Shown: positions 26,298-60,684 of the stretch, piece after piece | Numbering within the stretch: position 1 is the stretch's first letter | How the letters are laid out: each line of letters starts with the position of its first letter | Source: a virus | IMG/VR virus record: IMGVR_UViG_3300042691_040362 | Coordinates: 40,955-104,954 of that record | Reading direction: 5' to 3' (one strand) | Length of the DNA stretch: 64,000 nt | Position numbers and translations under genes: made by a program | The notes under the pieces: generated by a model | Seen by the model: only the letters and a program-made list of their open reading frames with translations | The model's database searches: none | Told to the model about the DNA's origin: nothing

Positions 26298-26300
26298 TAT

Positions 26301-29661: not shown

Positions 29662-29662
29662 A

Positions 29663-30478: not shown

Positions 30479-30483
30479 TTAAA

Positions 30484-30492: not shown

Positions 30493-30495
30493 CAA

Positions 30496-33100: not shown

Positions 33101-33108
33101 AATAAACC

Positions 33109-45626: not shown

Positions 45627-46424
45627 ATGATAAAACTTACTCAACTATTACAAGAAGCACTTTCTAAACCCAAAGCCATAATCATGGCGGGAGGTGCTTC
45701 AGTAGGTAAATCCACGGTACTTAAATCTATTGATCCTATAGTTAAAGATTTTGACAATCTAAACGCAGATAAATATGTTGAAGATAAAGATTCTCCAATG
45801 TATAGAAATTTATCTGCTGCATCTACTCAAATTAGAAAAAAAGATTTACCAAACGCTATAAAAAATCAAAAAAATCTTATTTACGACACTACGGCCTCTA
45901 ATTTATCTACTTTACAACCAATTCTAGATGAATTAAATAGTAATGGGTATGAAACCATGATGATTATGGTTTATGCCCATCCTGTTGTTTCATTTCTAAG
46001 AAATTTTAAACGTGAACGTAAAGTACCAGCTGTAGGTGTTTTAGGAACATGGGCTAATGTGTATAACTTATTAGACGAATATAAAAATATATTTGGTGAT
46101 AAATTTATATTGGTAAATTCTCCATCTGGACCTGAAGAACAAAAAGAAATAGCCAATTTTGAAAAAGCATACCAAGATGGCAAACTATCAGAATACTTTA
46201 ATAGTTTATTATCTACAGGAGAATTCGCTTCTACTTTTAAAAAAGATGATACAACTCTATCTCCTGAAGAAAAAGAAAAAAGAGAAAAACAAAGAGAAAA
46301 TACTCGTAAAACATTAGAAAAAAATATTGAAAAAATTTCTACCACATATGGAGATATTCAATCTAAATTAGACCCAATTGATAGTAAAGAGTTGCCTAAT
46401 ATTGTTAAAAACTTTGTTAAATGA
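45627..46424 (+). CDS. Tagged P-loop kinase-like protein
   Basis: 265 residues. Residues 1-14 (MIKLTQLLQEALSK) form a helical tag with LLQE-A. The P-loop GGASVGKST is at 22-30, followed by FDNLNADKYVED and a LIYDTTASN strand near 90, as in small-molecule or zeta-toxin-like kinases. The C-terminus is a charged coiled coil. Start chosen at 45627 rather than an in-frame ATG at 45591, because the latter lies at the class I promoter. Substrate unknown. Confidence 0.78.
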   Translation: MIKLTQLLQEALSKPKAIIMAGGASVGKSTVLKSIDPIVKDFDNLNADKYVEDKDSPMYRNLSAASTQIRKKDLPNAIKNQKNLIYDTTASNLSTLQPILDELNSNGYETMMIMVYAHPVVSFLRNFKRERKVPAVGVLGTWANVYNLLDEYKNIFGDKFILVNSPSGPEEQKEIANFEKAYQDGKLSEYFNSLLSTGEFASTFKKDDTTLSPEEKEKREKQRENTRKTLEKNIEKISTTYGDIQSKLDPIDSKELPNIVKNFVK

Positions 46425-48364
46425 ATTTTTTAGTTAGAGAACTTATACAACCTATATTAGAGGACTTTCAAATTGAAATGCCCCAATCTAATGAGGTAGT
46501 AGCTTTGTTTGGTGGTGGATTTAAACCACCCACAAAAGGACATTTTGATGTTGTTAAACAAACACTTGAAAACCACCCAAATATAACTGAATTTCAAATA
46601 GCAATAGGAGGAGGTACTCGAGACGGTATCACTCCTGAAATGTCTATGAAAATCTGGGAAATATACAAACCATTACTTTCAGATAAAGTAAAGTTAATTT
46701 CAACTTCATCTCCACTTACATATATTAAAGACTATATCAAGGAAAACTCAGATACAGAAATATATGCTGTGGTGGGTGCTAGAGAGGGAGATGAACAAGA
46801 TGCTAAAGATTTTGAACAACGTAAAACTCTATATAAAAAATACGGAAATAAAGTTACTGTTTTAAAATCAGAAGCCGAAAACAGCATTAGTGGAACTAAA
46901 GCACGTAAGGCACTATCTGATAATAATTTTGAGGAATTTATAAAATATTTACCTAGTGAATTAGATTCTGATACCCAACAACAAGTATGGAGCATTTTAG
47001 GTAAAGAAAAAATAGAGGAAATGTCTCAAATGGCTATCCAATCAGTTGAAGATTTTGCGGATAAAGAATTAAACCCACTAGACATAGAATTTACCAGTCA
47101 TTTCTTTGATAGATTAGTAGATCCTAGAAACATTAAGCCTATTTCATCAGCTGAACTTATTGGGTTTTTTAAACGCTTAGCTAAAAAGAAAAAACAATTA
47201 TTTGATTTTCTTTCTAAATATAAAGAAATAGTAGCCACAGATAATCGTACAGATATTAATATACCACTGGTTAAGCAAGCAAATACTGCTATTGCTAAAA
47301 CTATAATGCGTAAAAAAGATTTCAAAACACCTGATCCTAAAATTGAATTTAGTGAGAGTTTAAATGAAAGTGTAAACGATTCATTTGATGATTCTTTAAA
47401 TTCATTAATCAGATATATGGTTGATCAAGGTATGGATATTCAACCATTACCTACATTAAAAATCATAGACAACGATGTAGAAAACGCTAATAACGTTTTA
47501 GGTAAAACAGCGTACTACGATCCAAATAATTGTTCTATAACGCTTTATACGCTGAATAGACATCCAAAAGATATATTACGTTCATTTTCTCATGAAATGA
47601 TTCATCGTATTCAAGATAATGAAGGTAGATTAAATAATGTAACTACTAATGATACTAATGAAGATGGAGATTTACCTGAATTAGAAAGAGAAGCATATTT
47701 AAAAGGAAACATGACATTTAGAAATTGGGAAGATTCAATTAAAAATCAAAAATATATTAGAGAATATAAAGAGTATGCTTTAAATGAACTATTTGAAAAA
47801 GACTTACCTAATATAGAAAAATTAAATAGTGTAGAGTATTTAGTAAGCAATGGAGATGATATTGAAGCAAAATATTATTTTAGATTAGATGAACCTGATT
47901 TAAATAAATGGTCAATACATTGGAATTTTACAAATAATAACAAAAATACATCTCCTGAGGCTTGGAAACAAATAACTACTACCTCATTTAAAATATTAAA
48001 AGATTTTATAAATAATAAAAAACCAAACTACATTTCTCTCTCAGGGAATGAAAATAAAAGTGGTAAAAATGCTAAACTAAACATATATAAATCTAAATCA
48101 TTTTTAGAAAAACTTGAAAATATATTTAATAATCAATATTTAATTAAAAATGATGATGAATCTATGGTTTTAATGAAATCAATAGAAGAAGCATATAAGT
48201 ATGCCATAAATGAAAGTGTTAAGTATGGTGGAGAAAAATATGAAGATGTTTTATATTATTGGCAAAATTTAGATATAAATTCTAAAAGTAAAATAGAACG
48301 TTGGAATGCCACTAAACGTAAAGTGAAAAGAGAAGTTTTACAAGAAATTTACCAAATTAAATGA
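46421..48364 (+). CDS. Nucleotidyltransferase fused to HExxH metallopeptidase-like domain
   Basis: 647 residues. Helical tag (MNFLVRELIQPILED). FGGGFKPPTKGH (30-41) is a cytidylyltransferase/NMNAT-type nucleotide-binding motif, with an ISGTKARKAL segment near 150-160, typical of the SxTxxR region. Next, HFFDRLVDPRNIKPISSAEL (about 228-247) and TIMRKKDFKTPDPK is a conserved phage block of unknown role. A C-terminal domain has SHEMIH near 390-395, an HExxH zinc protease motif. (L/I)xE-S sequences (LNES, INES) lie between domains. Multidomain cargo protein; each activity is predicted only. Confidence 0.78.
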   Translation: MNFLVRELIQPILEDFQIEMPQSNEVVALFGGGFKPPTKGHFDVVKQTLENHPNITEFQIAIGGGTRDGITPEMSMKIWEIYKPLLSDKVKLISTSSPLTYIKDYIKENSDTEIYAVVGAREGDEQDAKDFEQRKTLYKKYGNKVTVLKSEAENSISGTKARKALSDNNFEEFIKYLPSELDSDTQQQVWSILGKEKIEEMSQMAIQSVEDFADKELNPLDIEFTSHFFDRLVDPRNIKPISSAELIGFFKRLAKKKKQLFDFLSKYKEIVATDNRTDINIPLVKQANTAIAKTIMRKKDFKTPDPKIEFSESLNESVNDSFDDSLNSLIRYMVDQGMDIQPLPTLKIIDNDVENANNVLGKTAYYDPNNCSITLYTLNRHPKDILRSFSHEMIHRIQDNEGRLNNVTTNDTNEDGDLPELEREAYLKGNMTFRNWEDSIKNQKYIREYKEYALNELFEKDLPNIEKLNSVEYLVSNGDDIEAKYYFRLDEPDLNKWSIHWNFTNNNKNTSPEAWKQITTTSFKILKDFINNKKPNYISLSGNENKSGKNAKLNIYKSKSFLEKLENIFNNQYLIKNDDESMVLMKSIEEAYKYAINESVKYGGEKYEDVLYYWQNLDINSKSKIERWNATKRKVKREVLQEIYQIK

Positions 48365-48897
48365 AATATAAATTAACAGACATATATAAGCAAATTAGGG
48401 AAGAGGAAACAGCTGCCCAAGTAGCACAATATAAAATATTTTGTGATATGGATGGCGTGTTATGTGATTTTGATAGACGATTTGAACAATTTGGAGGAAT
48501 GTCTCCTAAAGAATACGAATCAAAATATGGCATTAAAGAATTTTGGGAACTTATAGATAAAAAAATAGGTGTTCAATTTTGGTCTAAAATGCCATGGATG
48601 TCTGATGGTAAACAACTTTGGGACTATATTAAAAAATATAACCCATCTTTACTCTCAGCTCCTTCTAGAGAAGCATCTTCTCGCTATGGAAAACATTTGT
48701 GGGTAAAAGAAAATATACCTGGGACTAAATTAATTTTAGCAAATAGAGAAAAGAAAAAAAATTATTCTGGAAAAAATCGAATACTTATCGACGATCGCCC
48801 TGATAATATTAATGAATGGAAGGCCACAGGAGGTATAGGTATTTTACATACTTCAACATCAAATACAATTAACGAATTAAAGCAACTAGGATTATGA
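48361..48897 (+). CDS. HAD-family phosphatase, 5'-nucleotidase-like
   Basis: 178 residues. Helical tag (MKYKLTDIYKQIREEET), then FCDMDGVLCDF with the HAD nucleophile D29 and acid D31. KNRILIDDRPDNI near 138-150 is the motif IV acid pair, in the arrangement of deoxyribonucleotidases. Likely dephosphorylates nucleotides. Overlaps neighbours by four bases on both sides. Confidence 0.8.
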   Translation: MKYKLTDIYKQIREEETAAQVAQYKIFCDMDGVLCDFDRRFEQFGGMSPKEYESKYGIKEFWELIDKKIGVQFWSKMPWMSDGKQLWDYIKKYNPSLLSAPSREASSRYGKHLWVKENIPGTKLILANREKKKNYSGKNRILIDDRPDNINEWKATGGIGILHTSTSNTINELKQLGL

Positions 48898-49544
48898 AAT
48901 ATCAGTACAAATTGGTAAAAGAAAATGAAGGTGAAGAAGAAGTTAGTGGGTTAAAAGGTATACAATCTCAAAATGAATTAGTATTAACAGCCTTAGAAGG
49001 ACGTACTGCTAAAGAACTTCTTGATATTATCAATGATCCTGCTAACCTGGATAAAGTATATGCTAAAGAAGCTTCTGGACTAAAAGATATCAAAATTAAA
49101 GTATTTGGTGATATGCCTAATGCTCGTTATAAATTAAGTGATAACATTGCTATATATAAGGAAAATGGTACTTCTCTTTATTCTAAAATAGAAAATGCAG
49201 TTGGTGCAAAATTTGATAGAAAAGGAGCCGAAATTAACAAAGACAAAGCCGGTAACATTCGGTTTATTTTTCCTAAAAATAGTAAATATAATGTAGATTT
49301 AGTAGAAAAATATTTTAACAGTATGGATAGTGGTGAAAAATCTAGAAAAGCAGATTTACGACCTAAAGAAATAGATGAACTTACATTAAGATTTCCATTA
49401 AGTGATGGTCCAACTCTTAGAAAAATATTAGATAATGCAAATTTAGAATCAGGTAAAGATTATAAATTAAGTAAACAAGAAGCAATACAAGAAAATTTAC
49501 GTACTTTAGTTAAAAAAGAAATATTAAAGTTTTATAAAAAATAA
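48894..49544 (+). CDS. Unknown protein in tagged block
   Basis: 216 residues. Starts MKYQYKLVKENEGEEE, less like the helical tags; ends with a basic amphipathic helix (ENLRTLVKKEILKFYKK) that resembles the tag moved to the C-terminus. Mid-region is mixed alpha/beta. No family recognised. Confidence 0.65.
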   Translation: MKYQYKLVKENEGEEEVSGLKGIQSQNELVLTALEGRTAKELLDIINDPANLDKVYAKEASGLKDIKIKVFGDMPNARYKLSDNIAIYKENGTSLYSKIENAVGAKFDRKGAEINKDKAGNIRFIFPKNSKYNVDLVEKYFNSMDSGEKSRKADLRPKEIDELTLRFPLSDGPTLRKILDNANLESGKDYKLSKQEAIQENLRTLVKKEILKFYKK

Positions 49545-49547
49545 TTT

Positions 49548-50117
49548 ATGTCAGAAAACGTTTTAAAAAAAGATTTCAAACAAAAGGATGTTCAACGTCT
49601 TCGTAATCTTGTTCAAGGCAAGTACGGAGAAAGGACTACTGTGGGGATTGGTTATGAAAAGAAAAAAAGTTTTCATGATGAGGGAGATGTGTGGGAAGAA
49701 GATGGTAGGCAATGGACTATCAAAAATGGCATTAAACAAAATCTTACTAAATTAGACAAAGCAAAGCACTCAGTGACTTTGCCACTTTTCTGCCCTTGTT
49801 GCTCTAATTTAATGAAAAATAAATTCGATAAATTATTTTACATTCAATATAATAGATGCTTTAATTGTCAAATTGACTTTGAAACAGATATTCGCAAAAT
49901 GGGATTATGGGAAGAATATGAAAAAAATATCATCAATTCAGATGTAGATCATCTTATTAAAGATTATAATACATGGATGGATGAAGTTATCAATGGTTCA
50001 AATGAAAGTTTTATTACTGAAGCCGGAGATATTGAAAAATGGGATGGCTCAGCAAAGAAAAAGTTGTTAGAAAGTAAAGAAGAAACAATTAAATATTTGC
50101 AAACCTTAAAACGATGA
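49548..50117 (+). CDS. Zinc-ribbon protein
   Basis: 189 residues. FCPCCSNLMKNK and RCFNCQIDFE give C-x-x-C pairs near 83-86 and 105-108, a zinc ribbon. SFITE-AG near 161 is a prohead-protease-type site. Similar ribbon proteins with WEEDGRQWTIKNGIKQ occur in T4-like cyanophages. Function unknown. Confidence 0.75.
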   Translation: MSENVLKKDFKQKDVQRLRNLVQGKYGERTTVGIGYEKKKSFHDEGDVWEEDGRQWTIKNGIKQNLTKLDKAKHSVTLPLFCPCCSNLMKNKFDKLFYIQYNRCFNCQIDFETDIRKMGLWEEYEKNIINSDVDHLIKDYNTWMDEVINGSNESFITEAGDIEKWDGSAKKKLLESKEETIKYLQTLKR

Positions 50118-50121
50118 AGTC

Positions 50122-50742
50122 ATGCCTCCAATTCCAATTTACATAACAGTTGTAACAGCACTAATAACAGCGATTTTTGGTCCTATTATTGTAGAATGGG
50201 TAAAATCTAAATTTATTTTTCCCCATAAAGACGCATTAGGAGAATCTATTAATACAGATGAAAAAGTTGATCATCAACTAGAAATATTAATAAAAGAACT
50301 AAAAAGTGATAGAATATGTATTGCTCAATTCCATAATGGAGGACATTTCTACCCTACAGGAAAATCAATTAAGAAGTTTAGTATTTTTTATGAACGAACT
50401 ACAGACAAAACATCTTCTATAAAAGATACTTTCCAAAATATTCCTGTATCTTTATTTCCTAAAGCATTTTCTTTAATATATAAAGATGGAGAAATAATAA
50501 TTCCTGATACTAAAGAAAATTATTTGGATTGTGGTTTATTTCAAATTCAAGGAAAAAATTATAAAACTAAATCATTCTATGTTTTTTCAATAAAAGATAT
50601 AAATAATAATTTTATAGGTTCTTTAACTATTTCATATTATACTAGAAAACATTCTTTTACTCAAGAGGAATGGATATTAATAAGACAAAAAATAGGTGTA
50701 ATAGGAGCAATTTTAACTGACTACTTGCACGGAAAAAGATAA
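50122..50742 (+). CDS. Membrane-anchored GAF-like protein
   Basis: 206 residues. N-terminal transmembrane helix (about 6-23), then a soluble domain with SDRICIAQFHNGGHFYPTGK near 66-85, KSFYVFSIKD and EEWILIRQKIGVIG. The strand-helix pattern resembles GAF/PAS-like sensor folds. Possibly anchored in host membrane. Known in similar phages but not characterised. Confidence 0.68.
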   Translation: MPPIPIYITVVTALITAIFGPIIVEWVKSKFIFPHKDALGESINTDEKVDHQLEILIKELKSDRICIAQFHNGGHFYPTGKSIKKFSIFYERTTDKTSSIKDTFQNIPVSLFPKAFSLIYKDGEIIIPDTKENYLDCGLFQIQGKNYKTKSFYVFSIKDINNNFIGSLTISYYTRKHSFTQEEWILIRQKIGVIGAILTDYLHGKR

Positions 50743-50748
50743 ACACAA

Positions 50749-50757
50749 TATTTATAA
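50749..50757 (+). promoter_or_regulatory. Class II (late) promoter
   Basis: TATTTATAA then TAAAAT, 12 nt before 50770. Confidence 0.82.
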
Positions 50758-50769
50758 TAAAATACAAAG

Positions 50770-51288
50770 ATGAAAGAATTTGAAAGAATGCAGAAGTTAG
50801 CTTTTGGCAACACAATTCCAGCATTAAAACATATTGAAAATCAACCAGTTTCTTTAACTGAAAATGCACTTAAAGCTAAAATTAAAGAACTAGTACATTC
50901 ATCTTTAGGTGAAGCTAAGAAAAAGAAAAAAGAAGAAGATGTAGCTCCCCAAGAAGATGTAAATATAGAAATGGATGCTACTGAAGAAATACCTGGAGAT
51001 ACTATGGCACCTGAATCAGTAGATGGAGCAGATATTGATCCAACAGTTAAATCAATCCAGGATTCATTACAAAAAGCATTTGCTCAAGCTAAAACATTGG
51101 GTGATGAAAAACTTATCGCTCAAATTGGTAATACAATTACTATGCTTGTTAGAACACAAGTATTAGGTGGGCAACAAGTAGCTGAATCATTAAATGAAGA
51201 AGAAACAGATTATCAAGAAGGATACAGACATGGATACAATAACGGATATAGAGATGGTGTAGAAGGAGAAGAAAAAGAAAAATTTTAA
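50770..51288 (+). CDS. Tagged acidic protein with MQKLA start
   Basis: 172 residues. Begins MKEFERMQKLAFGNT, the same RMQKLA element found at the C-terminus of the 58319 and 56247 proteins. Then a helical tag-like ALKAKIKELVHSSLGEAKKK, a very acidic middle and a repeated GY/GYN motif near the end (YRHGYNNGYRDG). Likely internal or scaffold-associated virion protein; inference. Confidence 0.68.
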   Translation: MKEFERMQKLAFGNTIPALKHIENQPVSLTENALKAKIKELVHSSLGEAKKKKKEEDVAPQEDVNIEMDATEEIPGDTMAPESVDGADIDPTVKSIQDSLQKAFAQAKTLGDEKLIAQIGNTITMLVRTQVLGGQQVAESLNEEETDYQEGYRHGYNNGYRDGVEGEEKEKF

Positions 51289-51314
51289 TAAAAACAAATA
51301 AAAACAAACAATTT

Positions 51315-51488
51315 ATGAATTCACAAGAACTATTTGAACAAATTAGTGGGTTATTCGAAACAGCAAAAGAAAATCACGCTGAAACAACTAAAGCCGCTAA
51401 AGGTAGAGCACGCAAAGCACTTTCTGAAATAAAAAAACTCATTGCAGCCTACAACAAAGCTTCTGTTGCTGAAGTAAAAGCAAAGTAA
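51315..51488 (+). CDS. Histone H1-like basic protein
   Basis: 57 residues. QELFEQISGLFETAKENHAE, then KAAKGRARKALSEIKKLIAA resembles the short histone H1/Hc1-like proteins of Bacteroidetes (helix, then a basic AxRxRKAxxEIKKL helix). Probably binds DNA; placement in the late cargo block suggests packaging with or condensing of the phage genome. Confidence 0.75.
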   Translation: MNSQELFEQISGLFETAKENHAETTKAAKGRARKALSEIKKLIAAYNKASVAEVKAK

Positions 51489-51489
51489 A

Positions 51490-51951
51490 ATGGCACAGCT
51501 TACCCCAAGAGAAATAGCAATCAAAAATCAACTCTACAATCAATATAAACAAAATAAAGATGAGTTTATAAAAGATTATGGATCTGATGCTGAGCGAGTT
51601 ATGTTGGGGAGAGCAATTAAATTAGCAAAATCAATGGCTGCAAAAGACGACAAGCAAAAAATTAAGGAAATGATTAAAAAGGCCCTTCAAGGGCCTATTT
51701 CTGAAACTGAAGAAATCAATTCAATTGAATACGTACAAAATCGTAGACCAGTTGAAAGTAATCCTGAAGATGTAGTTAAGTTGGATGTTCCACTACTAAT
51801 TCGTATAATGGAATATGCTAGAGAAGATGCTAAAACAGACATGGATTTACATTTTGCAGCAGAAAACATGATTCAGTTATCAAAACCAAACAGAATTCTC
51901 AATATGGGGGATTATGAAAGTATTGTTTCTCCATACGTAAAAATTGATTAA
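51490..51951 (+). CDS. Conserved phage hypothetical, helical
   Basis: 153 residues. LTPREIAIKNQLYNQYKQNK start, KIKEMIKKALQGPISETEE centre, and LDVPLLIRIMEYAREDAKTD near 95-115. The last pattern is widespread in T4-like phage structural or internal proteins. A GGCCCTT/AAGGGCC inverted repeat occurs within the gene near 51681-51697. Confidence 0.72.
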   Translation: MAQLTPREIAIKNQLYNQYKQNKDEFIKDYGSDAERVMLGRAIKLAKSMAAKDDKQKIKEMIKKALQGPISETEEINSIEYVQNRRPVESNPEDVVKLDVPLLIRIMEYAREDAKTDMDLHFAAENMIQLSKPNRILNMGDYESIVSPYVKID

Positions 51952-51952
51952 A

Positions 51953-52438
51953 ATGACTAAAAGCGAGTTTAGAGATAGAATTAAATCTTTAGTTAAACAA
52001 GTATACTCAGGTGCAACTAAATCCACAGAAGTAGATTTAGATACAGTATCAGCTGTATCTTTAGATACAACTCGTTTTCCAGTTCTAGCTAAATTCCCAA
52101 CACTTAGAGATACCATTATTAAATTGCTAACAGATCAATATGATTTGTTTTTAAAAGACATTGAATGGGTAGCACCCCGTCCTACTACATTTCGTATTGT
52201 ATTAGCAAATGATCAAATATTTTATTTGATATTTACTGATAGAACATGGATTGGTAAAGTAGAAGGTAAAAAATATTACCTATTGAACATAAGTGAAGAA
52301 CAAAATTGTGTTGAATCAATAGCTAGAATTTTATCTTATGGTGCTAAAACTGAAGTTAAAAAAGAAGAAGTAGCACCTGAAGCACCAGTAGAAACACCAG
52401 CAGAAACTCCTGTTGAAGAAACACCACCAACAGTATAA
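51953..52438 (+). CDS. Conserved phage hypothetical
   Basis: 161 residues. ATG after the previous stop chosen over a TTG nine bases upstream. Contains FILYxxDRTWIGK-like strands (IFYLIFTDRTWIGKVEGKKY) and an acidic Pro/Glu/Ala tail (EEVAPEAPVETPAETPVEE). Found in similar phages; role unknown. Confidence 0.7.
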   Translation: MTKSEFRDRIKSLVKQVYSGATKSTEVDLDTVSAVSLDTTRFPVLAKFPTLRDTIIKLLTDQYDLFLKDIEWVAPRPTTFRIVLANDQIFYLIFTDRTWIGKVEGKKYYLLNISEEQNCVESIARILSYGAKTEVKKEEVAPEAPVETPAETPVEETPPTV

Positions 52439-53574
52439 TGGACGCATTAGATTTATTTTTTAAAAAATACTCTTACAAATTTCCTAAAGGATATCCTGAC
52501 ATGAATAATGAGCAGGATATCAATATTTTAGCTAATTTGTTAGAAGGATTAGGAATTGACTTAAGTGAAGACAAATCCTCAGATAGACAAGAAGCTAAAG
52601 AAATTTTAAAAAGAGAATTGGATTTAACTGATCAAGATTTTAAAGATAGTGGATTGCAATTTTATGTTTTAGTACCTGGAAATCAAAGACTATCATTTAT
52701 AGACAAAATTGAAAACATAGATACAGGAACAGATAAAAAGTTTAACTACAATTCCACTCCATCTGCATTCTCATCTTTAGGTTATTTTATGTATGGTGGT
52801 GTAAAATTTGGAATTAAACCTAGTGAAAAACAAGGTGGAAAATCTGCAGGTTTAGATAATGAAAATATCTTTTATAATACTGTTACTTCATTATTAAAAA
52901 ATGGTCCCAAAGATATAAAAATTACAGATGGTGAAAAAGAAGTAGTATTTAAAGATATTACTGAAATTGAAGAAACAGGTAGAAAAACATCAGGATACTC
53001 TAAATCAGATATTGATTTTTATAGTAATGGAACAAATAAAGGTGGCTTATCTTTGAAAAAAGAAAATGCAATATATTGGGAATCTTCCGATGTTAGATTT
53101 AAAAATGAAGTAAACAACTTAGTTAAAGCTATTACTAGTGGTAAATTAGGTGATGAAATATCATATGTTCCATATACTGATGCTCGAGGAAATACAGATC
53201 CCGGCATTATTAAAATGTATAATAAGAAAGAAAATAAACCGATTGCTGGTATTATAATAAAAGATCTACCTCAACAAGATATACAACAAGTTATTTTTGG
53301 TAATGACAATGTACCAGTGGCTGTTGCTACTTGGAGATCAAGTGATTTTACTATTGATGGAGATACAATTATAGCTAAAGCTAAAAAATTATATACTACA
53401 TTAAAAGATATTGAAAAGGATAAATCACTCCCCATATTGAATGTTAGACATGATAAAACAAGAAGATCATCAAAAGGATTAAGAGCTTTATTACAAACTG
53501 AAAAATCTTTATATAAAGATGAATCTTTAAAAGGCAACAATGTTGAACTTTCATATAACGAAATAATGTCATAA
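52438..53574 (+). CDS. Possible restriction-endonuclease-like protein
   Basis: 378 residues. GYSKSDIDFYSNGTNKGGLS then LKKENAIYW near 190-215 has the D-xn-(S/E)-x-K spacing of PD-(D/E)XK nucleases, without strong further support. The flanks are mixed alpha/beta, with HDKTRRSSKGLRALLQTEKS near the end. Candidate nuclease delivered or used late; treat as tentative. Confidence 0.55.
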   Translation: MDALDLFFKKYSYKFPKGYPDMNNEQDINILANLLEGLGIDLSEDKSSDRQEAKEILKRELDLTDQDFKDSGLQFYVLVPGNQRLSFIDKIENIDTGTDKKFNYNSTPSAFSSLGYFMYGGVKFGIKPSEKQGGKSAGLDNENIFYNTVTSLLKNGPKDIKITDGEKEVVFKDITEIEETGRKTSGYSKSDIDFYSNGTNKGGLSLKKENAIYWESSDVRFKNEVNNLVKAITSGKLGDEISYVPYTDARGNTDPGIIKMYNKKENKPIAGIIIKDLPQQDIQQVIFGNDNVPVAVATWRSSDFTIDGDTIIAKAKKLYTTLKDIEKDKSLPILNVRHDKTRRSSKGLRALLQTEKSLYKDESLKGNNVELSYNEIMS

Positions 53575-53583
53575 TATTTATAG
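53575..53583 (+). promoter_or_regulatory. Class II (late) promoter
   Basis: TATTTATAG, 2 nt before 53586; last base differs from the others. Confidence 0.6.
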
Positions 53584-53585
53584 GT

Positions 53586-54293
53586 ATGGAACGTATTAAA
53601 CAACTTATTCGAGAAGTACTTTCTACTCCACCCAAGAAAGAATCATGTAACTGTGGTTGCCATTCTTGTGAAAACGTAGGAAATAAAGGTCCAGTTCTAA
53701 ACGAAAGCTTAAATGCTAAAATCGTAATGACTGAAAACATGAAATATCATGTTGACAACAGATTACCACTTACAGAAAACACATTTCGTTATGGCTCACA
53801 AGCATTCTTAGATTTATGGGCTGAAGCTCGTTATCTATATTCTCGTAATGCTATTCATGTAAATGATGACGATAAAGAAATTTTACTTGAAACTAATTTA
53901 GGTGAATACGGAATGTATGAAGGTAAAAAAGTGCCTTTAGATTTACCTATGTTAGAAGATGATTCATTAGCGGCTGATGAAGAGGAAATAGCTGACGAAC
54001 CTATATCTGAAACTGATAAAAAGAAAAACCCACCAATTGGAAAACCAAAACGTGGTGGTTCTAAAAAGTTTTATGTATATGTTAGAGACAAAGGTAAAAT
54101 TAAAAAAGTATCATTCGGGGGAACTACCGGATTGTCTGTTAAAATAAATGATCCTAAAGCAAGACAAGCTTTTGCCGCTCGCCATAGATGTGCTCAAAAA
54201 ACAGATAGGACAAAACCTAGTTATTGGTCATGTAGAATCGGTCGTTATTGGAAGCAATTAGGAGGAGCAAAAAACTTTAGCGGATATTGGTAG
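53586..54293 (+). CDS. Tagged DUF5872 protein
   Basis: 235 residues. Helical tag (MERIKQLIREVLSTPP), a CNCGCHSC cysteine cluster (21-28), LNES site near 40, and a C-terminal DUF5872-type domain from about 147 (PPIGKPKRGGSKKFYVYVRD, ARQAFAARHRCAQKTDRTKP, YWSCRIGRYWKQLGG). DUF5872 is frequent in T4-like marine phages, function unknown. A hairpin plus late promoter begins just before its stop. Confidence 0.75.
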   Translation: MERIKQLIREVLSTPPKKESCNCGCHSCENVGNKGPVLNESLNAKIVMTENMKYHVDNRLPLTENTFRYGSQAFLDLWAEARYLYSRNAIHVNDDDKEILLETNLGEYGMYEGKKVPLDLPMLEDDSLAADEEEIADEPISETDKKKNPPIGKPKRGGSKKFYVYVRDKGKIKKVSFGGTTGLSVKINDPKARQAFAARHRCAQKTDRTKPSYWSCRIGRYWKQLGGAKNFSGYW

Positions 54294-54313
54294 GAAATCG
54301 GCCTTACCAATAT
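54284..54313 (+). terminator. Hairpin overlapping a late promoter
   Basis: ATATTGGTAGG, 7 nt, CCTTACCAATAT with one bulge; the 3' arm runs into TATTTATAA. Not followed by a T-run, so terminator function is uncertain. Confidence 0.55.
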
Positions 54314-54319
54314 TTATAA
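54311..54319 (+). promoter_or_regulatory. Class II (late) promoter
   Basis: TATTTATAA then TAAAAT, 11 nt before the homing-nuclease gene. Confidence 0.82.
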
Positions 54320-54330
54320 TAAAATAAAAT

Positions 54331-54957
54331 ATGGCGTATGTTTATATTGTAATCAATAAAGTTAATGGGAAAAAATATATTGGTTCCTCTCGAAAATCCC
54401 AAATAGATGAAAATTATTATGGTAGCGGCAAAGCAGTAAAAGATGCTCTAAAGAAATATGGTAAAGAAAATTTTATAAGAGAAATACTGTGGGAGGGTGA
54501 AGGAAATGCTCGCGATATAGAAACATGTTATTTAATAAAATTTAATGCTTCTAAGAATCCAATGTTTTATAATATGACTAATGATGCTAGAGGAAATGAT
54601 CTTCATAAAGAAGAAACAAAACTCACTGTTAGTGAAAAACTAATTGGGAGAAAATTTACGAAAGAGAGATGTGACAAAATATCTAAAGCTAAGAAAGGAT
54701 CCACAACCTCTAAAAAAGGCAAACCTGATGGCCCCAAACCAGGAGTATCAGAAGCTCATAAAGGTAGAATTAGTCCTAATAAAGGAAAAGGAAATCAAGT
54801 AGCTTTATATACAATATCTGAAGAATATATCAGAACTTATTCTAGTTACTATGACCTAGCTATTGATCTCCAAATAAATCCAGAAACAGTAAGATGTCAA
54901 CTTATTGGAAAATCTCAAACTATTAAAAATAAGCAATATAAAGCGCAATATGTATGA
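54331..54957 (+). CDS. GIY-YIG homing endonuclease (Seg-like)
   Basis: 208 residues. GIY-YIG core: YVYIVINKVNGKKYIGSS (3-20), YYGSGKAVKDALKKYG, and E64. The middle has NUMOD3-type repeats (EAHKGRISPNKGKGN near 141-155) and the end an IENR1-like helix-turn-helix (YDLAIDLQINPETVRCQLIG). This matches free-standing phage homing endonucleases, which cut cognate phage DNA and copy themselves. Intact, with its own promoter and no intron around it. Confidence 0.88.
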   Translation: MAYVYIVINKVNGKKYIGSSRKSQIDENYYGSGKAVKDALKKYGKENFIREILWEGEGNARDIETCYLIKFNASKNPMFYNMTNDARGNDLHKEETKLTVSEKLIGRKFTKERCDKISKAKKGSTTSKKGKPDGPKPGVSEAHKGRISPNKGKGNQVALYTISEEYIRTYSSYYDLAIDLQINPETVRCQLIGKSQTIKNKQYKAQYV

Positions 54958-54972
54958 TAGAAATGTGGTAAT

Positions 54973-55350
54973 ATGAAACTATTAGAACTTAAAAAACTTA
55001 TTCAAGAAGAACTACGTATAATACGTGAAAGTTCTGCTTCAAAACTTTATAAAGTAGAAGGACTATTAGTAACAAATACTGATAAAAAAACACAATCCCA
55101 AATACTTTCAGATATTAGATCAATCCCAGGTATCACAACAGTAGATGCTCAAGAATATACTCCTCGTTTACCTAAAAAAGGATACACATACGATAGATTA
55201 ACCATCAAGGTTGATCCATACCCATACATTAAAAAAGACGGTAAATTTGATATAGAAACGATTAATCAAGTAATCGCAAGTATTGGTGGGATTAAAGGAA
55301 TAGTTAAATTTAGAGTTGATAACCCCCAATTAATTAATATTGGGATATGA
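54973..55350 (+). CDS. Tagged ferredoxin-fold-like protein
   Basis: 125 residues. Two-part helical tag (MKLLELKKLIQEELRIIRES) with IIRE-S. The body has a beta-alpha-beta-beta-alpha-beta layout (YKVEGLLVTN, QILSDIRSIPGITTVD, TIKVDPYPYI, IKGIVKFRVD) of a ferredoxin-like fold. Function unknown. Confidence 0.7.
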   Translation: MKLLELKKLIQEELRIIRESSASKLYKVEGLLVTNTDKKTQSQILSDIRSIPGITTVDAQEYTPRLPKKGYTYDRLTIKVDPYPYIKKDGKFDIETINQVIASIGGIKGIVKFRVDNPQLINIGI

Positions 55351-55730
55351 TTAAGTTAATTAATCTTCTAGAACAAATTCTTCAAGAGAAAGCTGATCGC
55401 TGTAAGCGTATTGCTGATCGTAAGTACGATAAACCATCTGCTTACAAATCAGGTGCTATCGTTAGATGTCGTAAAGGTAATATTTGGAAGGATTTAAAAG
55501 AAGAAGAATTAAATGAAAAAGTAAAAGAAACACTTCGTACTTGGTTTAAACGTAAAGGTGCACCAGGTAAAGAAGGCGGATGGGTTGATTGTAATACTTG
55601 TAGAGACGGAAAATGTAAATCATGTGGTAGAAAAGAAGGTGAAAAACGTTCTAAATATCCTTCATGTCGTCCTACACCAGCTCAATGTAAAACACCTGGT
55701 AAAGGTAAAAAATGGGGGAAAACAAAATGA
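55347..55730 (+). CDS. Tagged DUF5872-like basic protein
   Basis: 127 residues. Tag MIKLINLLEQILQEKAD; RCKRIADRKYDKPSAYKSGA near 19-38; TLRTWFKRKGAPGKEGGWVD then CNTCRDGKCKSCGRKEGEKR. Related in motifs to DUF5872-type proteins of T4-like phages. Very basic with CxxC and CxxxC clusters, so probably binds metal or nucleic acid. Confidence 0.73.
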   Translation: MIKLINLLEQILQEKADRCKRIADRKYDKPSAYKSGAIVRCRKGNIWKDLKEEELNEKVKETLRTWFKRKGAPGKEGGWVDCNTCRDGKCKSCGRKEGEKRSKYPSCRPTPAQCKTPGKGKKWGKTK

Positions 55731-55996
55731 AAAAAGAATTTAATATAACTGAGTGGGCACTCAAAAATAGACTAAAAGAACATGAAGGTGAAGAATATCC
55801 TCCTTACATGTATTCACCTGTAGGTTTTAGCTGCGCAGTATGTAAATATCATTATATAAAAGATGATAAACATATGTGTAAAAATAAACAATACCAAGAG
55901 TATAAAGGTACTGCTGAATTGGTTGATGATGAAGGAAATCAAATTAAAGATCCTTCAAAATGGTGTTCAAATTGGTTTTTACCTAAAGGAGAATGA
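55727..55996 (+). CDS. Cysteine-cluster protein
   Basis: 89 residues. Start at 55727 overlaps the previous stop as ATGA; an upstream ATG at 55712 is possible. Cysteines in FSCAVCKYHYIKDDKHMCKN and SKWCSNWF resemble a high-potential iron-sulfur or zinc site (C-x-x-C-x12-C...C). Known as conserved unknown in related phages. Confidence 0.7.
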   Translation: MKKEFNITEWALKNRLKEHEGEEYPPYMYSPVGFSCAVCKYHYIKDDKHMCKNKQYQEYKGTAELVDDEGNQIKDPSKWCSNWFLPKGE

Positions 55997-56250
55997 AGCC
56001 ATACACAGACATAGAAGTTACAGACAAATATGTTATTCGTGAATTTAACGAAAATATAGATCCAATTGAGCTTCTTTGGCATCGCGATAATGAAGATCGC
56101 ACATTAGAAATAGTTGGTGAAACAGATTGGAAAATACAATTAGATAATAAATTACCAATCTTACTAGAAAGTCATATATTTATACCAAGACACGCATGGC
56201 ATCGTGTTATTAAAGGAACAGGAACATTAAAATTAAAAATATACAAATGA
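55993..56250 (+). CDS. Cupin-fold-like protein
   Basis: 85 residues. ELLWHRDNEDRTLEIVGETD then IFIPRHAWHRVIKGTGTL has the paired His and Pro-x-x-x-W-H of small cupins. Metal-binding beta barrel likely; activity unknown. Overlaps genes on both sides by four bases. Confidence 0.68.
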   Translation: MKPYTDIEVTDKYVIREFNENIDPIELLWHRDNEDRTLEIVGETDWKIQLDNKLPILLESHIFIPRHAWHRVIKGTGTLKLKIYK

Positions 56251-56780
56251 AATCAACTGAATTAAGACAACTTATCCGCGAATCAATCAATGAATATATT
56301 CGTGAAATCGATGAAGCAGGAACAAAAGCTGGATTACAAGCTAAAATAGAAGCAACTGAAGGTGCTATTAGCAAACGTGAAAAAATGGCTAATATGGAAG
56401 GCATTGATGAAGCTTATCATGAAATGCTTGATAAAGGCAAAATGAAAGAAATTGGTAATGAAGTTAAGGCATTAAAAAAAAGTTTAGATAAATTGAAAAA
56501 ACAATTAGATAAACTTAATTCAAAAGGTACTAAAACTGAAAAACCTGAATCTGAAGAAAAAGAAATTGTTGATGAAGTAAATATTGATGAAACATTTCCT
56601 GAATCTGGTGCTCAACTAGAAGAAGATAATAATGAGGATTTACCCCCTGCACCATCAGAAGAGGAAATAGCAGCTAATCAAATATACGAAATGCTCCATA
56701 TGCAAAAACTAGCAGGTATTATTTCAGAATCTGAATATGTTGCTAAAGTAAAAGAAGTAGAAAAAGCATCTAAAAAATAA
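56247..56780 (+). CDS. Tagged coiled-coil protein with MQKLAGII end
   Basis: 177 residues. Tag MKSTELRQLIRESINEYIRE containing LIRE-S and then IDE-A. Long Lys/Glu coiled coil (about 35-95), acidic stretch, and C-terminal MLHMQKLAGIISESEY near 148-163, as in 58319. Looks like a small scaffold or internal head protein; inference. Confidence 0.7.
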   Translation: MKSTELRQLIRESINEYIREIDEAGTKAGLQAKIEATEGAISKREKMANMEGIDEAYHEMLDKGKMKEIGNEVKALKKSLDKLKKQLDKLNSKGTKTEKPESEEKEIVDEVNIDETFPESGAQLEEDNNEDLPPAPSEEEIAANQIYEMLHMQKLAGIISESEYVAKVKEVEKASKK

Positions 56781-56834
56781 CATATAGACTGATTCATAGC
56801 CGGTCGCTCGAAAGAGACAAAACATCCTGGATCT

Positions 56835-56870
56835 GTGGCCCATTTTTCGAAAGAAAGGTGGGCCACTCTA
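56835..56870 (+). terminator. Strong hairpin terminator
   Basis: GTGGCCCA, 16 nt, TGGGCCAC, then TCTAATT; the T-run is poor, so an RNA-stability hairpin is the alternative. The 55 nt before it (56781-56834) also fold locally and hold no gene. Confidence 0.65.
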
Positions 56871-56874
56871 ATTG

Positions 56875-56903
56875 GGATTTCAAAATAAAAAATTTTATAT
56901 TTA
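56875..56903 (+). promoter_or_regulatory. Class I promoter
   Basis: GGATTTCAA, 12 nt, TATATTTA, only 4 nt before 56908: the oxidoreductase may be expressed from a very short leader. Confidence 0.75.
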
Positions 56904-56907
56904 GCAC

Positions 56908-58269
56908 ATGAAAAAAATCGTAATCGTAGGAGCAGGTGTAGCAGGTATTAACGCTGCTACCAAATTAGTAGACAATGGATATCCAGGACATCTAATTACA
57001 GTTATAGATAAAGGTAGCGATCCATATAATCGCTTACCTGAACAGGTAATGGAAGGCATGTTAGGAGCTGGAGGTTGGAGTGATGGTAAATTAACATACC
57101 ATACTGCAATTGGAGGAGTATTATCAAAATACTGTGGTGAAGAAAAAGCTATGGAATTAATGGATCAAGTAATTAAAAACTTTACTCGTTTCCACCCTAA
57201 ACCAGAAGAAATATTTATGTCTGATCCTCAAGAGGAACCAGATTTTATTAAACCACATTTTGGACTAAGACTATTTCCAGTGTGGCATATTGGTTCAAAT
57301 TATCTACATGAAATTGCTATTAATTGGTATGCTTACTTAGCTGATAAAGGTATTAACTTTATGTGGGAAACGGAAGTTACATATATTGATTTTGATAATC
57401 CTCATGGATATGTGTTAATAGAAGGATTTAAAAACCAAGGTGGAGGAGAAAAAACACATTACATGACTACTGGAGATAAATTAATATTCGCAGTGGGGAA
57501 GAGTGGTATCGACTTTGGTAAAGCACTAGCAGATGAATACAAATTACCAACTGAACCTAAATCAGTGCAAATAGGTGTACGTTTTGAAGCACCACAAAAA
57601 TATTTTCAAAAATTAATTGATGTATCATACGATTTTAAATTATATCAAAAATTCGATAACGTATCTCTACGTTCATTTTGTACAAATAATAATGCAGCTT
57701 ATGTGGCTGTTGAGAACACTTATGGGGATGTAAGTTATAATGGACATGCTAAGAAAGGCGAAGAATATCGTAACGATATGACTAACTTTGGTATCCTAAT
57801 GGAAATTAAAGGTATTGAAAATCCATTTGAATGGAGTAGAGAATTAGTTTCTAAAATCCAAATTGATAGTAAAGGACTATATTATTCTCCTTCCCGTAAA
57901 CCAGGACAAACATCAGAAGGAAATATAGTAACAGCTACTCCAATAAGTTTAGATGGGTTAACTCATTTAATTGAACCTTCATTTAATGGTTATTTCAAAT
58001 ATGTATGGGATTTTATACAAAATATGAATGAAGTATTTGAATTTGGTGATGATTGGGGAATGTATATTCCTGAGGTAAAATATTTATCTCCTGAACCATT
58101 AGTTGATTACAAGAATTTAGCATTAGTAGACTATCCAAATGTACACTTTGTAGGTGATGCTTTATCTGCTCGTGGTATTACAGTAAGTGGAGCACATGGA
58201 ATTTATGTTGCAGAAAATTTACTACAACATAAACTTGATGAATATCCAGATTTTGTAGAACATTATTAA
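56908..58269 (+). CDS. FAD-dependent oxidoreductase
   Basis: 453 residues. N-terminal Rossmann dinucleotide motif VIVGAGVAGINAATKL (5-20) then TVIDKG. GAGGWSDGKLTYHTAIGG near 53-70 and C-terminal HFVGDALSARGITVSGAHGI near 410-430 fit the NAD(FAD)-dependent dehydrogenase group. It lacks the tag of its neighbours and has an early-type promoter. Substrate unknown; unusual in phages. Confidence 0.82.
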   Translation: MKKIVIVGAGVAGINAATKLVDNGYPGHLITVIDKGSDPYNRLPEQVMEGMLGAGGWSDGKLTYHTAIGGVLSKYCGEEKAMELMDQVIKNFTRFHPKPEEIFMSDPQEEPDFIKPHFGLRLFPVWHIGSNYLHEIAINWYAYLADKGINFMWETEVTYIDFDNPHGYVLIEGFKNQGGGEKTHYMTTGDKLIFAVGKSGIDFGKALADEYKLPTEPKSVQIGVRFEAPQKYFQKLIDVSYDFKLYQKFDNVSLRSFCTNNNAAYVAVENTYGDVSYNGHAKKGEEYRNDMTNFGILMEIKGIENPFEWSRELVSKIQIDSKGLYYSPSRKPGQTSEGNIVTATPISLDGLTHLIEPSFNGYFKYVWDFIQNMNEVFEFGDDWGMYIPEVKYLSPEPLVDYKNLALVDYPNVHFVGDALSARGITVSGAHGIYVAENLLQHKLDEYPDFVEHY

Positions 58270-58318
58270 ACTTTACTATAATTCATTATATGTATAATAA
58301 AAACATATTTAAAACAAA

Positions 58319-58984
58319 ATGGAATTAAGAAAATACATCCGCGAAATGGTTGAGACTGAGCTTGATGAAATGGCTCGTATCTCTACTAACATCAAAATTG
58401 GTGATCCTGAAAAAGCATCCATTGCAAAAGAGCTATATGCTGGAACTTGGTATGGTGATATGATTGATTATGTAGAGGAAGCAGGAGACGTTGGTATTCC
58501 TCAACCTGAACTAGCAAGAATGTTAGGTAAATCAGGCCAACAAGCAATCAATCCCAAAGTTAGAGATTTCCTTGAATCAAACATCTTCACTAAAGGTGAG
58601 TTATCAGTAGCTAAAAAAGAAAAACCAGAAGCTAGTGGTATTAAAGGTCGCCCAACCTCAGAAAAAACATTAATGGCTAAAGATGTTAATTCTAAAATGG
58701 AAGCAGATGCTAACTATAAACCATCAGAAGATGAATTAGCAATATTGGGGGCTGAGTTTATTGAAAAACTTAGAGCACGTGTTAAAGGTACTTTAAGACG
58801 TGGTCGTCCTGCACTTCCTTCTAAAGCAAAAGATGGCATGATAGCAGCTATGAAAAAAATAGGAGATGAAGATATAGACATGGATGGGGATATTGATGAT
58901 GAGGATTTGGAAGATATTGCTGAATCAACTTCAATTAATGAATCGTTTACTCGTATGCAGAAATTAGCAGGAATTATTAAATAA
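58319..58984 (+). CDS. Tagged AT-hook protein with RMQKLAGII end
   Basis: 221 residues. Tag MELRKYIREMVETELDEMAR; a shared domain (NIKIGDPEKASIAKELYAGT, GIPQPELARMLGKSGQQAIN) found also at 59854; AT-hook-like KGRPTS and RRGRPALP; an acidic EDIDMDGDIDDEDLEDI stretch; IAES, INES sites and C-terminal FTRMQKLAGIIK. A late-type TATGTATAA variant lies about 30 nt upstream. Candidate DNA-binding internal virion protein. Confidence 0.72.
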   Translation: MELRKYIREMVETELDEMARISTNIKIGDPEKASIAKELYAGTWYGDMIDYVEEAGDVGIPQPELARMLGKSGQQAINPKVRDFLESNIFTKGELSVAKKEKPEASGIKGRPTSEKTLMAKDVNSKMEADANYKPSEDELAILGAEFIEKLRARVKGTLRRGRPALPSKAKDGMIAAMKKIGDEDIDMDGDIDDEDLEDIAESTSINESFTRMQKLAGIIK

Positions 58985-59008
58985 ATTATATTAAACAAAT
59001 TTTAAATT

Positions 59009-59038
59009 GAGGACTTGGATTACCAAGTCCTCTTTTTT
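59009..59038 (+). terminator. Terminator forming a hybrid with a promoter
   Basis: GAGGACTTGG, loop ATTA, CCAAGTCCTC, six T. Perfect 10-bp stem whose loop is the core of the class I box. Confidence 0.92.
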
Positions 59039-59045
59039 ATATTCA
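59017..59045 (+). promoter_or_regulatory. Class I promoter inside a terminator
   Basis: GGATTACCA, 12 nt, TATATTCA, before 59065; the T-run of the terminator lies in the spacer. Confidence 0.85.
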
Positions 59046-59064
59046 AGTAAAAAATTAAAGTTCT

Positions 59065-59298
59065 ATGAGTAATAAAAAAACAGACATTAGACGTATTAAA
59101 TCCCCAGATGGGATTGTTCGTTATATTAAAGATGGAAAATTACATAATGCAGAAGGTCCTGCGGTAATTCATCCTGATGGTAGAGAAGAATATCATTTAA
59201 ATGGTTTTCAATATTCAAAGGATGAATTTAAAACAATTAAAAAAGATAGTAATGGATTACCATTCTATAAACAATCAGGAACTAAAATGCGCCATTAA
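59065..59298 (+). CDS. Small MORN-like repeat protein
   Basis: 77 residues. RYIKDGKLHNAEGPAVIHPD and REEYHLNGFQYSKDEFK match the short KxHNxxGPA repeat proteins common in phages. Function unknown. Followed after one base by the kinase-like gene. Confidence 0.7.
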   Translation: MSNKKTDIRRIKSPDGIVRYIKDGKLHNAEGPAVIHPDGREEYHLNGFQYSKDEFKTIKKDSNGLPFYKQSGTKMRH

Positions 59299-59299
59299 G

Positions 59300-59830
59300 A
59301 TGAAGATTGGATTCACAGGTACAGTAAGTGTGGGAAAAACTACATTAGTTAATTCACTAAAAGAATTACCAGAATTTAAACACTATGATTTTGCAACTGA
59401 ACGTTCAAAATATTTACGTGATTTAGGTATTCCCCTAAATACAGATAGTACATTAAAAGGACAAACAATTTTTCTATCAGAGAGATGTTCTGAGTTAATT
59501 AGACATAATATTATAACTGATCGAACAGTTATAGATGTTATAGCATTTACATTAAATGCCGATTCGATTGATTATTTAAATAAAGATGCGTTTGAAAAAT
59601 ATGCTTCTAAATTTATAGAGGAATATGATTGGATATTTTATGTATCACCAGCTGGAGTATCTATTGAAGATAATAATGTGCGTACTACAGATGGAGAATA
59701 TAGAAAACAGATTGATCAAACAATCAAACATCTATGCTCAGAATATTTATGGAAAATTAAAAACTTTGGTATCATCGCTGGTACTAATGAAGACAGAATT
59801 ACTCAAATAAAATCTTACTTGAATTTATAA
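59300..59830 (+). CDS. P-loop nucleoside/nucleotide kinase-like protein
   Basis: 176 residues. FTGTVSVGKTTLV (5-17) is a Walker A; FATERSKYLRDLG near 31-43 and IITDRTVIDVIAF near 75-87 (D-R motif) fit AAA-type kinases such as NadR-like or thymidylate kinase-like proteins. Start taken at 59300; longer frames overlap the preceding gene. Likely phosphorylates a nucleoside or cofactor precursor. Confidence 0.78.
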   Translation: MKIGFTGTVSVGKTTLVNSLKELPEFKHYDFATERSKYLRDLGIPLNTDSTLKGQTIFLSERCSELIRHNIITDRTVIDVIAFTLNADSIDYLNKDAFEKYASKFIEEYDWIFYVSPAGVSIEDNNVRTTDGEYRKQIDQTIKHLCSEYLWKIKNFGIIAGTNEDRITQIKSYLNL

Positions 59831-59839
59831 TATTTATAA
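59831..59839 (+). promoter_or_regulatory. Class II (late) promoter
   Basis: TATTTATAA then CAAAAT, 14 nt before 59854. Confidence 0.8.
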
Positions 59840-59853
59840 CAAAATCTTACTAA

Positions 59854-60684
59854 ATGAAACGCAAAGAACTATATAACTATATTCGTGAAGAAATTGTAAA
59901 TGAGTTAACTACTGTTACTAAAAATACTGATCAAAGTGAAGTTTCAACAATTTCTAAAGCAGAAAATGTACCTACAACTACCGTTTCTAATGCTATTAAG
60001 AAAGCCAAATCATCCGGTCAAGATGTAAATATAGCTGAGATGGCTCGTACTGCAAATAATATTAAAATTGGAGACCCAGCTAAAGTAACTCTACTTAGAA
60101 AATTATATGGTGGAACATGGAAAGGAAATATGTTAGATGCAGTAGAAAAAGCAGGTGAAGCAGGTATTTCTCAACTTGAATTAGCTTTAGCAGTTGGTAA
60201 AAAAAGTCAACCCGAAATTAATCCTGCCGTAAACGAATTTCTTAAAGTAGGTGCGTTTGCATTATCTAAAATTGCAGGTGCAGCCGCAGAACCAACTATT
60301 GCTCCTTCATCTGAAGAAGAAGAATGGATGGCGGACGCTGATGTACAAGATGATTGGGAAAAAGTTGAAGATGAAGATGAAGATATAATGGATAAAGGTC
60401 CATCAGCCGCAGATATCAAAGCAGCTGAAAAATCAGTTAAGAAAGTAGCAGGTGGTAAAGGATACGCTAAACAATTACCTCCTGAAGATGAAGAAAAATA
60501 TGAACGATTGAAAAAGGGAATTGAAACTAAAATCTCCAAAATTAAGGCTCTTCAAAAACCCAAAAGAGCATCATCAAATGATATGCAGGTACTTAAAGCT
60601 TTAATTAATCGAGATGATGTTAAAAAACTATTTAAAGCTAAAGGTGTTAGTATAACTGACTTAGTAGCAGATATCATATCATGA
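59854..60684 (+). CDS. Tagged protein, paralog of 58319
   Basis: 276 residues. Tag MKRKELYNYIREEIVNELTT; the block ARTANNIKIGDPAKVTLLRK, GGTWKGNMLDAVEKAGEAGI, QLELALAVGKKSQPEINP is shared with 58319. Acidic middle and a basic C-terminal coil (KKGIETKISKIKALQKPKRA). The winged-helix-like shared block suggests DNA or protein binding. Overlaps the next gene by four bases. Confidence 0.7.
   Translation: MKRKELYNYIREEIVNELTTVTKNTDQSEVSTISKAENVPTTTVSNAIKKAKSSGQDVNIAEMARTANNIKIGDPAKVTLLRKLYGGTWKGNMLDAVEKAGEAGISQLELALAVGKKSQPEINPAVNEFLKVGAFALSKIAGAAAEPTIAPSSEEEEWMADADVQDDWEKVEDEDEDIMDKGPSAADIKAAEKSVKKVAGGKGYAKQLPPEDEEKYERLKKGIETKISKIKALQKPKRASSNDMQVLKALINRDDVKKLFKAKGVSITDLVADIIS

Follow-up and report, generated by a model that had tools for sequence, protein, structure and literature searches.

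Candidate internal head proteins with interchangeable terminal tags in T4-like phages related to Flavobacterium phage immuto

Why do neighbouring phage genes, most of whose products belong to no named family, begin with similar short peptides? The question is raised by a gene block (positions 45,627 to 60,684) upstream of the large terminase gene in a 64,000-nucleotide stretch of viral DNA (hereafter the window), comprising bases 40955-104954 of the 104954-base IMG/VR virus record IMGVR_UViG_3300042691_040362. The window is part of a T4-like phage genome, kin to Flavobacterium phage immuto, which was the closest isolate by terminase (62% identity), with Microcystis phage Mel-JY01 next. We consider it likely that the block encodes candidate internal head proteins, which would be targeted to the prohead by short terminal sequences (tags), cut by protease and delivered early to the host. 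Since unrelated proteins share interchangeable end tags, one of which copies the tail of the scaffold protein, the tagged proteins of these widespread bacterial viruses probably enter the head and reach the host together with the viral DNA. Gene order in immuto resembled that of the window (primase, exonuclease, nucleotidyltransferase, nucleotidase, a run of small genes, terminase), followed 3' of the terminase by portal, protease, scaffold and capsid genes. The record of the window ends shortly behind the terminase gene, and relatives therefore supplied the head genes.

A shared start upstream of the terminase

The original prediction had proposed that at least eight block products begin with a short amphipathic helix of the form MK-x-x-x-L-x-x-L-I-(R/Q)-E-x, and the starts it quoted were all present in the sequence. 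A regular expression (regex) of this form, applied to the N-termini of open reading frames (ORFs), matched 8 of 22 plus-strand block ORFs versus 1 of the 72 window ORFs outside the block, namely the gene at 30496. Controls gave 2 matches in 165 internal windows of block ORFs and a mean of 0.5 in shuffled N-termini. The same regex matched 5/24 ORFs of the syntenic block in immuto, 2/16 in its head module and 3/191 elsewhere. Across 78 related loci it was found in 63 of 459 ORFs upstream of the terminase (internal windows, 51/2800; shuffled starts, 7.2) and in 38 of 266 downstream versus 69 of 3337 internal windows, orthologues being counted repeatedly in these figures.

The block products had further been described as having unrelated folds. 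Matches to Zeta_toxin, NT5C and DUF5872, with mostly no family otherwise, agreed with this, but the proteins at 58319 and 59854 have a common body domain, so not all tagged block proteins are unrelated. Of the DUF5872 proteins that had been named in the plural, the one at 55347 matched the Pfam family, whereas the one at 53586 matched no Pfam family. The protein at 30496, to which the same kind of start had been ascribed, did begin similarly, yet its membership is uncertain because the start is almost unchanged in counterparts from immuto and from records G024 and G005.

Tag classes, the scaffold tail and a putative cleavage site

Reading immuto and its relatives, in which classes B-E were recognised, gave about five short tag classes, several of which end in the T4 protease motif [L/I]-x-E. 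Class A is MKKSELKQIIKEEIxxxLxE, class B MDNFDLKKYLAEGKL, class C (R)MQKLAG(I/L)ITE of the MNKEFLKMQKLAGLITE type, class D MIKLxxILxE and class E xKYKLxE. When 1230 start methionines were compared with 4546 internal ones, the class B regex matched 16 versus 0, D 19 versus 2, C 11 versus 7, and A 145 (terminase counted in) versus 68. Wider regexes for all classes, derived partly from the very sets counted, matched 9/22 block ORFs versus 1/72 others in the window (Fisher 4e-6) and 10/24 versus 4/191 in immuto (Fisher 3e-8). Tagged products of immuto (NC_055915) include those encoded at 102294, 103806, 109856, 111675, 117631 and 118632. Record G005 (163 kb) held 14 tag-matching ORFs, terminase aside, one of which was the counterpart of 30496. 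Short tblastn queries against phage isolates returned only immuto records for tag C and no record for tag A, the queries being too short to be sensitive, and no match came from isolates whose scaffold type is more distant (L384).

Shared starts could be by-products of 5' gene recombination or a favourable initiation sequence, with no role at the protein level; several own-genome A-tag genes do adjoin (L004:7726-10296), and since they are neighbours tandem duplication may occur. We find this origin very improbable, given the 87 DNA spellings among 126 listed C tags and 87 among 132 A tags, the synonymous differences between own-genome tag copies, and the presence of the C motif at C-termini and internally as well. 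That so many DNA spellings encode the same tags suggests instead that the tags are under selection as protein.

Homologous bodies also exchanged tags. Of the 316 families that had two or more members, more than one tag class occurred in 19, and 15 of these were clear by eye; fam2 and fam3, regex-ambiguous between A and D, and two further multi-tag families in which no direct pair was shown were not counted as swaps. The own-genome protein L004:8072 starts MKKSELKQIIKEEIEKAL (A) and L222:13952 starts MDNFDLKKYLAEGKL (B), with bodies 83% identical. Homologues of the class C protein at 50770 carry B tags (L258, L312, L138), those of the protein at 55727 have the same body behind a class D tag (L193, L187), bodies homologous to 55347 carry A and B tags, and members of fam11, the family of 54973, are tagged A or D. 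Because homologous bodies swap tags, the simplest reading is that the tag classes appear to do one job.

What that job may be is indicated by class C. Immuto and relatives encode a protease of the gp21 type, a scaffold and a capsid protein of the gp23 type (the immuto head maturation protease by a PHROG match of 6.2e-53). Of 30 tag-bearing records, 18 had the immuto-type capsid protein, among them 7 of the 8 that exceed 100 kb. All 20 scaffold homologues ended in a LAG or LAF tail, for example RMQKLAGIIK. A C-terminal scan of viral contigs (MQKLAG, then I/L/F or like, any residue, K and stop) placed 113 of the 119 matches listed directly before a gp23-type capsid gene; the other six had no capsid gene in the downstream stretch read, and three of these were homologues of the window protein at 58319. 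This protein ends RMQKLAGIIK, as a gp22-type scaffold does (RMQKLAGI-type C-terminus), but sits upstream of the terminase in the window and not just upstream of a capsid gene. A second viral-contig scan, for the C motif followed by ITE, listed 126 matches, of which 107 lay at most 40 codons from the upstream stop, 7 at most 15 residues from the C-terminal end and 12 elsewhere. Of 18 records examined for their scaffold tails, 16 yielded one (none in G015 and G023; two candidates in G022), and cargo was found by a fixed pattern. At the level of sequence, tag C reproduces the tail with which the scaffold protein ends.

Between tag and body there was commonly an [L/I]xE site. It fell in residues 15-23 of 86 of 103 unique A-tag proteins (1000 shuffles: mean 29.8, maximum 45). 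Among 96 distinct listed C-tails, a few of which are cargo, it lay at most 13 residues before MQKLAG in 82 and just upstream of there in 1, compared with an average of 19.1 in shuffles; when V was also allowed in the first place, the E sat 7 residues before M in 66 of the 96. N-terminal C tags found without requiring ITE had the site within 8 residues after LAG in 22 of 25 cases; as 12 of these 25 contain the exact ITE scan pattern and could be favoured, the 13 others may be taken separately, and 10 of them had it. Capsid protein sites read by eye were IVSE/A in immuto and LISE/A in Mel-JY01 (slash, putative cut). Whether the tag is N- or C-terminal, [L/I]xE lies towards the body, so that a cut point is likely between tag and body in either case.

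The original prediction, which saw one of the about five classes, had compared the starts with the T4 capsid targeting sequence, and this idea gains from the tagged head-core products described below, the tag swaps, the [L/I]xE at the border and the scaffold-tail tag. Short charged helices can nevertheless serve many docking roles, and the tags might be docking or degradation signals for a target other than the head, for example the membrane or a protein of the host, or the prohead protease by itself. The terminase, which is no cargo, has an A-like start in keeping with this. We think it distinctly improbable, because tag C is the scaffold's own tail, the [L/I]xE lies on the body side at either terminus, and the C motif followed by ITE had one match in bacterial and archaeal genomes, situated in a phage head cluster between prohead protease and scaffold. 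That match was on a contig of a Flavobacteriaceae metagenome-assembled genome (L477), where a C-tagged protein of 61 residues and then a protein of 85 residues are encoded between protease and scaffold, with the capsid gene following.

Cargo, proposed loading and known systems

Behind N-terminal C and A tags, 230 listed proteins fell into 111 body families (60 C, 53 A, 2 both). A domain scan with Pfam and PHROGs covered 85 representatives of at least 95 residues, from 106 of length 60-900, and found 8 Pfam families and 8 PHROGs, almost every one of them on a single member; in a rescan of 20 of these representatives with a relaxed limit, one A-tagged protein weakly resembled an ADP-ribosyltransferase (E 0.037). 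The C-tagged L196:3425-3988 resembled the anti-CBASS protein Acb1 (26.8 against a Pfam cut-off of 27 bits), making this Acb1-like 2H phosphodiesterase with its N-terminal C tag a candidate packaged anti-CBASS protein.

Tagged products were also encoded in the head-core cluster between portal and scaffold. In immuto the product at 123355 has tag A and that at 125241 tag B, while tag C occurs there in L014 and L017 and tag E in several loci. Such positions, together with the effect of T4 IPIII on head assembly (PMC9026906, in the part used), would fit tagged proteins that are extra structural or core parts aiding prohead assembly, later cleared or kept, rather than effectors delivered to the host. 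We hold this to be unlikely, considering the 111 body families among listed A/C-tagged proteins, enzyme folds such as Zeta-toxin kinase, NT5C and Acb1-like and the variation in number of tags between genomes.

The tags, their swaps, the scaffold identity, the placement of sites and the linkage to gp23-type phages were read from the sequences, and we infer a binding partner, cleavage, packaging and ejection as follows. A terminal tag would target each protein to the prohead core. Because tag C copies the scaffold C-tail, tag-C proteins probably enter the prohead through the contact normally made by that tail, which, to judge from other scaffolds, is probably with the capsid shell. In engineered P22 capsids, cargo fused to the scaffold's shell-binding end enters the procapsid, as proposed here for tag C; that system is engineered and not natural, and its scaffold is unrelated. 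During maturation the gp21-type protease would cut at [L/I]xE and free the body inside the head. Freed enzymes and inhibitors may then leave with the DNA, an ejection into the host that we postulate by analogy with the internal proteins of T4 (PMC3012670, PMC9026906), and act early. We strongly infer that candidate effectors are loaded into the prohead, among them the kinase, the nucleotidase, the Acb1-like protein and many proteins of no named family. We also lean, with somewhat less confidence than for the block itself, towards the broader view that a widespread aquatic group of T4-like phages has made the scaffold C-terminal contact into a portable tag. On this view, members of many unrelated families bear such a copy at one end or the other, or else an equivalent tag, and these scaffold mimics would form in each genome a changeable DNA-delivered arsenal that can be read from the sequence.

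Several observations weigh against internal head proteins. Most cargo bodies (85 representatives) matched no family in Pfam or PHROGs, so that an effector role is guessed for most of them. The hydrophobic moment was 0.33 for block N-termini and 0.21 for the rest (p = 0.07), so that the amphipathicity named in the original prediction did not reach significance. The tags of classes D and E are short and their definitions loose, and the A regex matched the terminase N-terminus in 75 of 81 terL-family members; since terminase starts match too and orthologues recur, the A regex alone is weak evidence. Within the block, the 46421 homologue in L329 lacks the leader, the protein at 50770 has no [LI]xE close behind its class C tag, and the 53586 leader is variable or absent among orthologues (absent in L176). 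The window record ends short of its own scaffold tail, a search of the 30 tag-bearing records yielded no capsid gene in 12, mostly fragments but one of 117 kb, and record G024 (164 kb) has few tagged ORFs, fewer than G005. A literature search found no virion proteome of an immuto-type phage. In most relatives the terminase start, MSQxDLKQIIRxEY, resembles the A tag, which may be either chance or a sign of another partner for A-type helices.

Comparisons with known systems draw on parts of the papers cited. The nearest known parallel is offered by the internal proteins of T-even phages, described as a varied set of defence proteins whose sole common element is a conserved capsid targeting sequence (CTS) (PMC3012670). 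T4 gp21 cleaves after L/I-X-E, and a T4 IPIII tag with Asp at position 10 is still packaged although its processing is blocked (PMC9026906). Like T4 IPI-IPIII and Alt, the proteins described here have a short N-terminal leader on unrelated bodies with an L/I-x-E site at its end, although leader removal is here predicted from sequence, and like the T4 cargo, which acts against host defences, they are diverse (PMC3012670, PMC9026906). T4 IPII and IPIII start MKTYQEFIAEA, with which the tags have in common only the general form of a leader followed by I/L-x-E. New relative to T4 internal proteins are the set of about five interchangeable tag classes, their use at either terminus and a tag equal to the scaffold C-tail, and there are far more cargo families. 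In phage P1, DarB likewise has an N-terminal signal, 30 residues of which are enough to target a protein to the capsid; P1 is a different phage, and the part of PMC9024508 used identifies no scaffold in it and no tag family common to many proteins. In SPN3US and phiKZ, the prohead protease removes propeptides after E, and these are thought to be head-targeting (PMC5694885, PMC10052503). Such ejection proteins are similar in having a head-targeting propeptide and a protease site ending in E, but many of the propeptides exceed 100 residues, the portions of these papers used report no scaffold-tail tag, and by the time of the 2017 paper these phages had no confirmed gp22-type scaffold. Full-text literature searches for MQKLAGI, MQKLAGL, QKLAGIIT and KKSELKQIIKEE gave no match, and none of the titles and abstract openings searched describes these tags.

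If the proposed loading is correct, the tags provide a sequence rule for listing the head-carried proteins of environmental T4-like phages. Most proteins so listed have no known domain and would be candidate early effectors or anti-defence proteins, one of them Acb1-like. It would also offer a testable answer to how cargo finds the prohead, namely by copying the scaffold's own tail.

Features of the block and its relatives

Table 1. Positions in the window of tagged genes, their tags and associated genes (slash, putative cut)
Feature	Position	Strand	Basis or remark
Zeta-toxin-like P-loop kinase	45627..46424	+	Pfam Zeta_toxin 2e-12
Class D tag MIKLTQLLQE of 45627 gene	nt 45627-45656	+	site LQE/A
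Nucleotidyltransferase-like protein, HEMIH motif	46421..48364	+	CTP_transf_like below cut-off; HEMIH read in sequence
Leader MNFLVRELIQPILE of 46421 protein	46421-46462	+	no class regex match
HAD / NT5C nucleotidase	48361..48897	+	Pfam NT5C 5.9e-6
Leader MKYKLTDIYKQIRE of 48361 nucleotidase	48361-48402	+	no class regex match
Protein of no named family	48894..49544	+	class E tag MKYQYKLVKE (48894-48923), a class that head-core products bear too
Protein of no named family	50770..51288	+	class C tag MKEFERMQKLAFG (50770-50808), of the kind seen in scaffolds with the end RMRELAFG
Protein of no named family	51953..52438	+	A-like start without xxE site; membership doubtful
Protein of no named family	53586..54293	+	class A tag MERIKQLIRE (53586-53615), then CNCGCHSC
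Protein of no named family	54973..55350	+	class A tag (54973-55029); sites IQE, IRE/S
DUF5872 protein	55347..55730	+	Pfam DUF5872 1.5e-7
D-like tag MIKLINLLEQILQE of DUF5872 protein	55347-55388	+	no class regex match
Cysteine-rich small protein	55727..55996	+	leader MKKEFNITEWALKNRLKE (55727-55780), no class regex match
Coiled-coil-like protein	56247..56780	+	N-terminal class A tag (56247-56315) plus C-type motif HMQKLAGIISE (56697-56729)
Winged-helix-like body, tags at both ends	58319..58984	+	low-confidence AlphaFold2 model
N-terminal A tag MELRKYIREMVETELDE of 58319 protein	58319-58369	+	
Scaffold-type C-tail RMQKLAGIIK of 58319 protein	58952-58981	+	site INE/S ahead of tail
Terminase-adjacent protein	59854..60684	+	class A tag MKRKELYNYIREEIVNE (59854-59904)
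A-like start protein in tail gene region	30496..30843	+	membership uncertain; similar start in immuto 81525, G024 78299, G005 150926
Large terminase	61244..62836	+	synteny anchor; N-terminus a false positive of the A regex

The first gene of the block starts at ATG 45627, the ORF from 45591 being a TTG extension, and most homologues of its kinase with a called start retain a D-type leader. Leaders vary among homologues of the nucleotidase at 48361, and a fusion in L329 has none. The AlphaFold2 model of the 58319 protein had a mean pLDDT of 61.8, with blocks of the body (about residues 21-90) at 80-91, an N-terminal helix at 2-19 and a C-terminal helix of low confidence; Foldseek with this model returned nothing at E <= 0.001, the weak matches including winged-helix proteins.

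Neither the class regexes nor inspection by eye found a tag on the genes at 49548, 50122, 51490, 52438, 54331, 56908 and 59065 or on the P-loop gene (ATG ~59300). Two of these untagged genes within the tagged block, encoding an FAD-type oxidoreductase (56908-58269) and the P-loop protein (~59300-59830), recur in relatives, where a small protein with a DGKLHNxEGPA motif (59065-59298 in the window) is conserved near the P-loop gene. The CNCGCHSC cysteine cluster behind the 53586 leader is kept or altered in relatives, or stands at the start of the protein (L085, L176), and is lacking in immuto.

Mel-JY01 (L009, PP395634) clustered with Flavobacterium-type phages by terminase, scaffold and capsid, and its Microcystis host label may need checking. 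In immuto (L007), positions 18607-34883 carry QueC, QueD, QueE, FolE and DpdA annotations, a set that suggests 7-deazaguanine DNA modification.

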